From positions 1 through 29,364 of the IMG/VR virus record IMGVR_UViG_3300006880_000043: 29,364 nucleotides of DNA, one strand, 5' to 3'. This document shows positions 21,996 to 25,006 of this stretch, in pieces; the stretch's first letter is position 1, and every line of letters starts with the position of its first letter. The translations under genes were made by a program, and so were the position numbers. The notes under the pieces are model-generated. The model made no database searches. It was not told the origin of the DNA and worked only from the letters and a program-made list of their open reading frames with translations. Source of the DNA: a virus.

Positions 21996-21999
21996 TAGG

Positions 22000-22072
22000 T
22001 ACCCCTGACTGGACTCGAACCAGCAACCGACAGATTAGAAGTCTGTGACTCTATCCATTGAGCTACAGGGGC
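22000..22072 (-). tRNA. tRNA-Arg(TCT)
   Basis: Cloverleaf folded by hand: acceptor GCCCCTG with CAGGGGT (one G-U), D-arm GCTC/GAGT with one G-U pair, anticodon stem ACAGA/TCTGT around CTTCTAA (anticodon TCT), T-arm GCTGG-TTCGAGT-CCAGT with one G-U. Discriminator is A; the next bases read CC. It reads AGA codons, rare in high-GC hosts but common here. A CCTGTAGG motif lies 3 nt upstream of its 5' end. Confidence 0.93.
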
Positions 22073-22868: not shown

Positions 22869-23049
22869 CCCTATCCTCCTTGTAGTATTTAGCCCTATTT
22901 TCTTCAGTTTGGGGAACTGGCTTACCACAAGACGTACATTTATTGTTCCTACTCACACGAGTGTGGTAGCAAGTTTTCCAGTTAAATGGACGTCTATCAC
23001 AAATCTTAGTATGGCCATTTCTGCATCTACATTCAGGGCATCTCCCCAT
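22843..23049 (-). CDS. Cys-rich zinc-binding protein (68 aa)
   Basis: ATG 23049 follows AGGAGGCACGCAT, an excellent ribosome site. The protein has C4-x2-C7-x-C9 (MGRCPECRC), C17, C27 and C38-x2-C41 (NNKCTSCGKPVP), plus His residues. This is consistent with a double zinc ribbon, followed by a charged tail (EDRDDDSDSNP). It overlaps the end of the uracil-DNA-glycosylase-like gene by 17 nt. It may bind nucleic acid or act as an adaptor; function unknown. Confidence 0.75.
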   Translation of the reverse strand: MGRCPECRCRNGHTKICDRRPFNWKTCYHTRVSRNNKCTSCGKPVPQTEENRAKYYKEDRDDDSDSNP

Positions 23050-23614
23050 ATGCGTGCCTCCTAAGACTTGCGTATCCGGATCGCACCTCCCCCTTCTTAG
23101 ACGGGTTGTGAGTTACGACAGCCGGGTGGTACAGTGGTACGTAACGATTATTGTAGAGTTTTCCGTGCCATTCGTGAAACTTCTTTGCCAACTCAGGAAC
23201 GATAGTAAGTAGGGGAATCCTACCTGCGAGGGCCACGATTCCTGGATTAACAATTTCAATTTCGCGTAACAGATACGGTCGAGACGATTTCATCTCTTCA
23301 ATAGTTGGAGTCCTAGGTTTACCGCTAGTCTCCGTTGGCAGATACTTTACTGAGTTAGTTAGGTAAATGTCATGCATATCAATATTGACATCATCTAAAA
23401 TATTAGCTAGATTGATGCCTGCACGACCAAGAAATGGGATCTGCCTAGCGTTCTCTAATCGCCCCGGCGCTTCCCCAATAATCATAATACGCGGATTAAC
23501 TGGACCAGTTCCTGGAACAAACCGGATGCCAGGCTTACGCATATGATTAAAATGAGCATCTTCCATGTACTCCAGGTTTAAATCCTGAAGCCGTTCAATC
23601 TGTGTTTTATTCAC
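23033..23614 (-). CDS. Uracil-DNA glycosylase superfamily protein, no Cys
   Basis: The 193-residue protein has motifs of the family 4/5 glycosylase group: IIGEAPGRLENARQIPFLGR (residues 45-64) as motif 1, IYLTNSVKYLP (84-93), VNPGIVALAG for the following strand, and YHPAVVTHNPSKKG (162-175) as the HPS/HPA-type motif. Such enzymes remove uracil from DNA. Classic family 4 members bind a 4Fe-4S cluster through four cysteines; this protein has no cysteine, so it lacks the cluster or belongs to a divergent phage subgroup. The start is GTG 23614 after GGGGAGTTAG. Its role in the phage could be repair, or handling of modified or host DNA. Confidence 0.78.
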   Translation of the reverse strand: MNKTQIERLQDLNLEYMEDAHFNHMRKPGIRFVPGTGPVNPRIMIIGEAPGRLENARQIPFLGRAGINLANILDDVNIDMHDIYLTNSVKYLPTETSGKPRTPTIEEMKSSRPYLLREIEIVNPGIVALAGRIPLLTIVPELAKKFHEWHGKLYNNRYVPLYHPAVVTHNPSKKGEVRSGYASLRRHAYGEMP

Positions 23615-23659
23615 CTAACTCCCCTTCAATGAAACAATCACCTCCGCTTTGAGGATTTG

Positions 23660-23732
23660 TGCCCTCGGCGGGACTCGAACCCGCACTAGCGCGATTTTAA
23701 GTCGCGTGCCTCTGCCATTGGGCTACGAGGGC
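23660..23732 (-). tRNA. tRNA-Leu(TAA), short variable loop
   Basis: Acceptor GCCCTCG with CGAGGGC, anticodon stem CGCGA/TCGCG around CTTAAAA (anticodon TAA), T-arm GCGGG-TTCGAGT-CCCGC, discriminator A. The variable loop is only about 5 nt (CTAGT), whereas leucine tRNAs normally have a long variable arm. The D-stem has one mismatch (GCCC/AGGC). It would read TTA codons, which occur throughout the phage genes and are rare in high-GC actinobacteria. Confidence 0.88.
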
Positions 23733-23956
23733 TCACCTACAGGAGGACCCCGAAGAATTAGCGCGCTCTATGCTAATCGAATCAGGCTTACACCTGTAGG
23801 CTTCATGGCTTTGTAGTTGTTAATCCTGCCTCAGCATCAGAATCAACTACTAGTCACAGACGCGGCTGAGGAGAGGCTGTGACTAAGTCGGCAGATCCTC
23901 ATATCTTTAAGATCGCGACTCTTATTGATTGAAGCACTGACCAATTCCCGACCTCG
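23733..23956. other. Non-coding gap between tRNA-Leu and tRNA-Gln
   Basis: No convincing gene is seen in these 224 nt on either strand. The gap contains two CCTGTAGG motif copies in opposite orientation (23736 and 23793) and the interleaved hairpin arms described at 23814-23885. No T-loop consensus for a further tRNA was found. Confidence 0.6.
23814..23885 (-). ncRNA. Possible structured RNA with interleaved stems
   Basis: Three inverted repeats interlock: TAGTTG (23814-23819) with CAACTA (23844-23849); CCTCAGC (23829-23835) with GCTGAGG (23865-23871); TAGTCACAG (23851-23859) with CTGTGACTA (23877-23885), a perfect 9-bp stem. Each later stem crosses the one before, so a pseudoknot or alternative folds are possible. 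The strand is assumed from the flanking tRNAs; short repeats may be chance. Confidence 0.35.
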
Positions 23957-24028
23957 CTCCCCCACCAGGATTCGAACCTGGAATGACAGTACCAAAAGCT
24001 GCCGTGTTGCCAATTACACTATGGGGAA
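23957..24028 (-). tRNA. tRNA-Gln(TTG)
   Basis: Acceptor TTCCCCA with TGGGGGA, D-arm GTGT/ACAC, anticodon loop TTTTGGT giving TTG, T-arm CCAGG-TTCGAAT-CCTGG, discriminator G. The pair closing the anticodon loop is a C-A mismatch, and the stem includes a G-U. A weak U-A-type 31-39 pair is normal in tRNA-Gln, but here it is fully mismatched. The 5' end lies 3 nt from a CCTACAGG motif (24032). Confidence 0.88.
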
Positions 24029-24031
24029 TTG

Positions 24032-24075
24032 CCTACAGGGGACTATATGCAGACCGGTGATATTGCCCCTGTAGG
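24032..24075. repeat. Inverted pair of the dispersed octamer
   Basis: CCTACAGGGG (24032-24041) faces CCCCTGTAGG (24066-24075), a perfect 10-bp inverted repeat with a 24-nt spacer containing ACCGGT. It separates the acb2-like gene from tRNA-Gln. A second small hairpin, CCTAGG-TTTT-CCTAGG (24078-24093), lies beside it. It could be a processing hairpin freeing the tRNA, a weak terminator, or a two-site operator. Confidence 0.6.
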
Positions 24076-24098
24076 TGCCTAGGTTTTCCTAGGACAGC

Positions 24099-24326
24099 TT
24101 AGAAGCCTTCAGGCTTAGCTACAGCCTTGACAGCCCACATCATGCCTTGCTGAAGATTAGTCTTAGCAATCGAAACGCAACGCTGGTCTAATTCCGGCAT
24201 AGCTTGTAAGTCTTCAACTACCGTCTTCAGAGTAGCGCTGACACCTTTAAGCTCTACGATTAGATCAATCTCTGCTTGGGTCAGGTCCCTGTAACCCGGA
24301 ATCTGCCTGTGTTGATTATCAACCAT
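24099..24326 (-). CDS. acb2: Acb2-like cyclic-nucleotide sponge (anti-CBASS)
   Basis: The 75-residue protein reads NQHRQIPGYRDLTQAEIDLI, then VELKG, then a second helix, then LDQRCVSIAKTNLQQGMMWA and VKAVAKPEGF. This matches, from memory, the pattern of the Acb2/Tad1-hairpin family: GYR-L--EI-LI-x-K in helix 1 and D-R---I--T-LQ-G-M---RA---P--F in helix 2. Acb2 proteins form hexamers that sequester cyclic di- and trinucleotides, blocking CBASS and related defence signalling. Length is close to the family norm. The ribosome site CAGGAGATAAAA precedes ATG 24326. It lies between tRNA-Glu and tRNA-Gln in the accessory block, a common place for counter-defence genes. Binding residues were not checked against a structure. 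Confidence 0.65.
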   Translation of the reverse strand: MVDNQHRQIPGYRDLTQAEIDLIVELKGVSATLKTVVEDLQAMPELDQRCVSIAKTNLQQGMMWAVKAVAKPEGF

Positions 24327-24370
24327 TTTTATCTCCTGGATTCTCTAAACCAAATTCTCCGCCAAGCATG

Positions 24371-24442
24371 TGACCCCTACGGGATTCGAACCCGTAACCT
24401 CTAGGTTGAAAGCCTAGTGATCTACCGTTGATCTAAGAGGCC
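24371..24442 (-). tRNA. tRNA-Glu(TTC)
   Basis: Acceptor GGCCTCT with AGGGGTC (two G-U pairs), D-arm GATC/GATC, anticodon stem CTAGG/CCTAG around CTTTCAA (anticodon TTC), T-arm ACGGG-TTCGAAT-CCCGT, discriminator A. It is the only intact tRNA here without a CCTGTAGG motif at its 5' side; a long hairpin sits there instead. Confidence 0.92.
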
Positions 24443-24478: not shown

Positions 24479-24516
24479 TCTAACCCCACCGTGTAGGCTA
24501 CTATCGGAGTAACCCG

Positions 24517-24545
24517 TGCCCCCTGTAGGACTCGAACCTACAGCT
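24517..24545 (-). pseudogene. Orphan tRNA 3' half (T-arm and acceptor strand)
   Basis: The - strand reads a perfect T-arm, GTAGG-TTCGAGT-CCTAC, followed by AGGGGGC and A, exactly a tRNA 3' end with discriminator. The matching 5' acceptor GCCCCCT and D-arm are absent within 90 nt upstream. That space is the 3' end of the HNH gene, whose stop codon lies at the edge of the fragment. GGTCT plus TAGCT just upstream would fit an anticodon-stem strand and a 5-nt variable loop. It is either a remnant left by HNH-linked invasion, the 3' part of a split tRNA, or a tRNA-type attachment core. Confidence 0.7.
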
Positions 24546-24816
24546 AAGACCGTCGAGGCTTTTGGTGCAAACTAGAATGTCTTCCTCTCTTAATACTATC
24601 AGCTATATTCTGCTTCTGCGTACCTAGTTCTAGATGTGTTATCTCGTAACAATGCCGTATATCGCATTTATGTCTAATAACAAGACCTCTAGGTATAGGT
24701 CCATTATGCTTTTCCCACTCTAATCTGTGTACGTAGCAGACAACTTTATTTACTTTCTTAGACCCATAGCCATCTTTGGTTTTTGCCCCTTCCCATAATT
24801 TACAAGGTGTATCCAT
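24544..24816 (-). CDS. HNH homing-type endonuclease (90 aa)
   Basis: The protein starts MDTPCKLWEGAKTKDGYGS and continues VHRLEWEKHNGPIPRGLVIR, HKCDIRHCYEITHLELGTQK and an N-terminal-to-RGRHS tail. This is the layout of small HNH_3 homing nucleases (CxLWxG...GYG, HRxxWxxHxGPIPxGxxIxHxCD, HLxxGTxxxN). The usual NP pairs (CDNP, CVNP) are replaced by CDIR and CYEI, so the central Asn of H-N-H is missing and activity is uncertain. The ATG lies 1 nt after the tRNA-Lys 3' end and the stop abuts the tRNA 3' fragment. I see no ribosome site except within the tRNA itself. This is a mobile gene inserted exactly between two tRNA ends. Confidence 0.8.
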   Translation of the reverse strand: MDTPCKLWEGAKTKDGYGSKKVNKVVCYVHRLEWEKHNGPIPRGLVIRHKCDIRHCYEITHLELGTQKQNIADSIKRGRHSSLHQKPRRS

Positions 24817-24817
24817 G

Positions 24818-24890
24818 TGCCCTCTCGGAGGTTCGAACTCCGGACCCGCGGATTAAAAGTCCGCTGCTCTACCAACTGAGCTAAGAAGGC
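24818..24890 (-). tRNA. tRNA-Lys(TTT)
   Basis: Acceptor GCCTTCT with AGAGGGC (one G-U), D-arm GCTC/GAGC, anticodon stem GCGGA/TCCGC around CTTTTAA (anticodon TTT), T-arm CGGAG-TTCGAAC-CTCCG, discriminator A. All stems are intact. A CCTACAGG motif lies 4 nt upstream of the 5' end (24895). Confidence 0.95.
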
Positions 24891-25006
24891 TTGCCCTACA
24901 GGGGCTTAGAAGTGTCCACTAGCGCGCTTACCCCTGTAGGTCTATCCTAGGTTACTGCGAGCCTCGTTCGGTTTTACCCTAAAGTAGAGACTTACCCTAG
25001 GAAGTT
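24891..25006. other. Non-coding leader of the tRNA block with motif pair
   Basis: No gene is seen in these 116 nt. CCTACAGGGG (24895-24904) and CCCCTGTAGG (24931-24940) form a perfect 10-bp inverted repeat with a 26-nt spacer. Two CCTAGG palindromes follow near 24946 and 24996. It lies between the ssDNA-binding-protein gene and tRNA-Lys, a natural place for processing or transcription control. Confidence 0.55.

Follow-up and report, generated by a model that had tools for sequence, protein, structure and literature searches.

A 75-residue Acb2-family protein encoded in the tRNA block of an uncultivated phage is a predicted sponge for CBASS cyclic oligonucleotides

Does a small gene lying between two tRNA genes of an uncultivated phage encode a member of the Acb2 family, and would its product act on the cyclic nucleotides of CBASS, as the initial annotation of this locus had proposed? 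The gene belongs to IMG/VR virus record IMGVR_UViG_3300006880_000043, of which the whole stretch of 29,364 nucleotides was analysed (the window). A single ORF of 75 codons and a stop codon, starting with ATG, was found at positions 24099 to 24326 (stop included) on the minus strand, a strand that the initial annotation had left unstated for what proved to be a real ORF. The plus-strand reading of the same positions was rejected because stops interrupt the frame. The open frame around the acb2 ORF is of 81 codons only. The ORF has a CCAGGAGATAAAA ribosome-binding site before its ATG (AGGAG at 24331 to 24335, minus strand, 4-8 nt upstream of the ATG), and the upstream sequence of the minus strand reads ...AATCCAGGAGATAAAA-ATG. 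The three peptides on which the family had been proposed, IPGYRDLTQAEIDLI, DQRCVSIAKTNLQQGMMWAV and AVAKPEGF, all lie within this ORF.

The results of our profile searches showed that Pfam family PF24729 (Acb2_Tad1_hairpin) matches residues 11-71 of the protein over model positions 1-58 of 58 (E=1.9e-18); in this search, which the initial annotation had recommended, the score of 66.8 bits was far over the curated cut-off of 27 bits. The next family in the Pfam scan was below its own cut-off. In a six-frame search, PF24729 was found once in the whole 29,364-base virus record and not at all in 14 control genomes. PHROG 717 also matched the ORF (E=4.9e-20), at the C-terminal end of its 289-position profile. 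The best phmmer matches among PDB sequences were those to the Acb2 protein p26 (8h2j at 2.3e-11 and 8ixz at 5e-11), and the profile of alignment A2, in which the query is aligned with 16 relatives encoded on IMG/VR contigs, returned only 8h2j (1.2e-30), 8ixz (1.2e-29) and T4 Vs.4 7uq2 (1.3e-8) from the PDB. A tblastn search gave 226 phage records, each with a match spanning 80% or more of the query, at identities up to 56%; the phages matched are those of Vibrio, Pseudomonas, Erwinia, Aeromonas, cyanobacteria and others, and the genes concerned mostly carry the annotation 'hypothetical protein'. The E-values of the Pfam and PHROG 717 matches and the number of phage records argue against a chance ORF. 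NCBIfam gave no match to the ORF, a silence that is uninformative since the known T4 Vs.4 and PaMx33 Acb2 proteins are likewise unmatched by this library, which is without an Acb2 model. PADLOC returned nothing beyond a chance-level match to HerA. At the nucleotide level, relatives in the phage collection were limited to tRNA matches, so that no near-identical phage was available for selection tests.

The AlphaFold2 monomer model, built on alignment A2 (mean pLDDT 87.7, pTM 0.68), is a helical hairpin with helices at residues 17-41 and 48-70 and no strand of three or more residues. Its N-terminal 10 residues or so are of low confidence (pLDDT 54) and include a short turn or helix at residues 5-7. 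A Foldseek search of the PDB with this model placed Acb2 or Vs.4 chains in all of the top nine positions, with a probability of 1.00 and E-values from 2.5e-4 to 3.4e-2 (2.5e-4 to 1.1e-3 for Acb2 8h2x and 8h2j, about 0.03 for Vs.4 7uq2), and the first unrelated match was Rop, at an E-value of 2.2. VIA-align also ranked the Acb2/Vs.4 entries first, with Z-scores of 7.8-8.1 and rmsd of 2.1-3.0 over 67-71 residues, the next entry being at 6.4; the best PDB matches were Acb2 8h2x and 8h2j (Z of 8.1 over 71 residues). The two-helix pattern noticed at the outset is in agreement, as a predicted monomer fold, with the solved Acb2 structures. It is the sequence evidence that carries the case, since such a Z-score margin is by itself weak for helical hairpins.

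Residues were mapped to T4 Vs.4 on an alignment of 28 distinct proteins (A1). In T4 Vs.4, the ligand is contacted by stacking of Y8 and F82 and by hydrogen bonds or salt bridges of Y8, H11, K23 and R79, while T12 is a helix cap and L29, A66, A73 and A77 are located at the hexamer interfaces (PMC10097602). Y8 and K23 correspond to Y12 and K27 of the query, which are invariant in 28 of 28 aligned sequences and are predicted by this mapping to have the most direct part in the binding of cyclic dinucleotides. R79 corresponds to K67, a conservative change at a position that is an arginine in 26 of the 28 sequences, and the helix cap T12 to T16. H11 and F82 are not kept and are replaced by L15 and A70; leucine and alanine are present at these positions in 27 of 28 sequences, including the validated PaMx33 Acb2, and the histidine and phenylalanine are peculiar to T4. 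We judged the pocket to be retained, two of its five positions (Y8, H11, K23, R79 and F82) being identical, one conservatively changed and two T4-specific. The initial annotation had held that a lack of ligand-binding residues would speak against an Acb2 protein, and the main ones are present. The hexamer interface was likewise judged to be retained, with L33, A54, G61 and A65 in the query for L29, A66, A73 and A77, and the small residues at this predicted interface are kept. T68 of T4 Vs.4, of which the T68M substitution is annotated as affinity-lowering (PMC12657230), corresponds to T56.

R67 of PaMx33 Acb2 aligns with R49 of the query, and this arginine is kept in 27 of 28 sequences (D61 in T4). 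The position is reportedly the cyclic-trinucleotide site (Cao et al. 2024). The presence of R49 makes it plausible, on the aligned sequences, that the protein binds cyclic trinucleotides in addition to dinucleotides.

With its PF24729 profile match, a predicted fold like that of solved Acb2 proteins and the main residues of the ligand pocket, the family identity first proposed for this protein was borne out, and by sequence and model the gene is clearly a new, confidently assigned member of the known Acb2 family, whose phage proteins sequester the cyclic nucleotides that serve bacteria as alarm signals in anti-phage defence. Homology, the predicted hairpin fold and the conserved pocket and interface residues were all found here, and we consider it very probable, from the sequence and the model, that the product is a hexameric Acb2-family (T4 Vs.4-like) sponge for CBASS cyclic oligonucleotides. 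The solved Acb2 and Vs.4 proteins are hexamers with three cGAMP bound (PMC12043709, PMC10097602), and it is by homology to them that we infer the hexamer, its ligands, an anti-CBASS effect and the possession of CBASS or a related system by the host. The 75-residue hairpin would assemble into a homohexamer with, by homology to the solved members, three cyclic-dinucleotide pockets located between paired protomers and formed by the conserved GYRDL segment near the N-terminus, by K27 and by the C-terminal tail. These pockets would bind, without cleaving them, the cyclic dinucleotides made by the CBASS enzyme of the host, so that the CBASS effector would stay off and the infected cell would not be killed. 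The gene would then imply an encounter of the phage's host with CBASS or some other defence based on cyclic nucleotides.

The protein could also be of the Tad1 type, with gcADPR, the signal of Thoeris, as its main target in place of CBASS nucleotides, since PF24729 spans both Acb2 and Tad1 and the ligand ranges of the two overlap for CBASS nucleotides (PMC12043709). However, Tad1 has an N-terminal antiparallel beta-sheet (beta1-beta4) ahead of its two helices (PMC12043709), for which the query, with 75 residues, an open frame of 81 codons and a model devoid of strands, offers no counterpart, and its Foldseek and profile matches go to Acb2/Vs.4; we regard a Tad1-type protein as very unlikely. 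We consider it just as unlikely that this Acb2 homologue no longer has its usual ligand, being inactive or binding another nucleotide, as a way out of Panoptes-type systems, by which sponges are penalised. Binding by Acb2 is under negative selection from Panoptes, T4-like phages include natural loss variants (PMC12657218, PMC12657230), and K67 of the query departs from the arginine of most aligned sequences, but the frame of acb2 is intact, the exchange of arginine for lysine is conservative and the signature Y12, K27, T56, A70, P72 and F75 is retained. There is next to no chance that the protein is a helical hairpin of a generic type, such as a Rop-like one or a coiled coil, devoid of any nucleotide-binding role: such hairpins are common and Rop is in the weak part of the Foldseek list, but its E-value there is above 2, while the query has a family match at 1.9e-18 and invariant pocket residues.

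Comparison of the predicted sponge with the Acb2 of Pseudomonas phages PaMx33 and PaP2 (gp24 and p26; PDB 8h2j, 8h2x and 8ixz) showed 31% identity and 59% similarity over 93 columns. They share the N-terminus DNQH..I.GYRDL..EID, the PDSF/PEGF end and the hairpin fold, and K26 and R67 of these proteins are also matched in the query; however, the query is a short form of 75 residues rather than 93, with a loop between the two long helices that is shorter by about 18 residues. The query has in common with T4 Vs.4 (PDB 7uq2) the GY motif with Y8, T12, K23, the IAKT segment, A66, A77 and the hairpin fold, whereas H11, F82 and D61 of T4 Vs.4 are replaced by leucine, alanine and arginine in the query and in almost all relatives, and the DNQH start of the query is missing from T4 Vs.4. 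Leptolyngbya phage Lsp-JY19 is among the phages with short Acb2-like proteins of the same 75-residue form, which are 50-57% identical to the query. The Lsp-JY19 homologue lies beside capsid genes and that of Microcystis phage Mwe-JY05 beside a portal gene, whereas the query is in a tRNA block. Tad1 (Thoeris anti-defence 1) shares the PF24729 hairpin family with the query, which lacks its N-terminal beta-sheet domain.

The DNA polymerase and capsid protein of the window, which is a phage fragment, are closest, at about 30-45% identity, to those of Arthrobacter phages Casserole and Jasmine, Cellulosimicrobium phage DS1, Microbacterium phage Shocker and ctEqG8 (Podoviridae), a genome from a freshwater spring. 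DS1 and ctEqG8 have tRNAs among small ORFs in the corresponding part of their genomes, and the fragmentary contig L023 has a tRNA-Leu and a tRNA-Arg beside a uracil-DNA glycosylase ORF. No PF24729 gene was found in DS1, ctEqG8 or the L023 contig. In Casserole, gp9 (L029:4432-4632, 66 residues, just before the terminase) gave a match of 16.9-17.9 bits to PF24729; it was not counted as Acb2, being below the cut-off of 27, and could be a divergent Acb2 or a chance match. Since the four related records, of which one is fragmentary, hold no confident copy, we take acb2 to be most probably an accessory gene within a variable tRNA block. Acb2 is already known in actinophages, from Microbacterium phage Statler (PMC13348362) and from two Mycobacterium phages, Xandras and BigBubba (PMC11953737). 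This gene therefore extends rather than opens the distribution of the family and documents an Acb2 in an uncultivated phage; the isolates nearest to this phage have Arthrobacter, Microbacterium and Cellulosimicrobium as hosts.

Five tRNAs were found in the window by ARAGORN and Rfam, of which four are within about 1.2 kb around acb2 and share the minus strand with it. The gene is flanked by tRNA-Gln (TTG, 23956 to 24028) and tRNA-Glu (TTC, 24370 to 24442), with tRNA-Leu (TAA, 23659 to 23732), tRNA-Lys (TTT, 24817 to 24890) and a 90-residue HNH endonuclease ORF (24544 to 24816, minus strand; PF13392, E=2.8e-16) close by, in line with the surroundings first described; the fifth, tRNA-Arg (TCT), is at 21998-22072. 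Short Acb2 homologues also lie within a tRNA block in the jumbo phages CBB, XbC2 and Munch (L032, L037 and L038). Only 3 of 20 IMG/VR acb2 loci have a tRNA in flanks of up to 5 kb, and other homologues adjoin capsid, portal or ribonucleotide-reductase genes; acb2 genes do not, in general, sit in tRNA blocks. The initial annotation had suggested that the neighbouring mini-genes may be counter-defence factors as well, a suggestion left unsupported by family scans, which gave an HNH nuclease, a uracil-DNA glycosylase, a 3'-5' exoribonuclease, an AAA ATPase, a PD-(D/E)XK nuclease or no match, and no recognised counter-defence domain. The block of this actinophage-type virus might in turn be a small counter-defence cassette, in which the cyclic-nucleotide sponge is paired with tRNAs that perhaps replace those cut by defence systems and in which the 75-residue form has a ligand preference of its own. 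We give this cassette a slim chance, in view of these scans and because acb2 genes do not generally have tRNAs close by.

The uracil-DNA glycosylase superfamily protein is encoded at 23033-23614 on the minus strand (PF03167, E=1.2e-28), and the ORF beside the tRNAs of the L023 contig is similar to it (GEAPGRLENAK motif). Rfam matches above threshold in the tRNA block were tRNAs only, with no group I intron or riboswitch. A stretch at 24515-24560 (minus strand) resembles the 3' half of a tRNA, with a T-arm and an acceptor strand (AGGTTCGAGTCCTACAGGGGGCA), and brings the copies of the tRNA 3'-end repeat to six; the HNH ORF reaches into it with its 3' end. As the window nowhere contains the matching 5' acceptor strand (GCCCCCT, minus strand), this stretch appears to be a remnant of a tRNA. 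The ATG of the HNH ORF abuts the 3' end of tRNA-Lys (24816-24817) and its stop codon is inside the tRNA remnant, so that the HNH gene is tightly fitted between tRNA sequences. Inverted CCTACAGGGG / CCCCTGTAGG repeats are located between genes of the tRNA block, at 24887-24948 and also at about 24030-24076, and are possibly processing sites or terminators.
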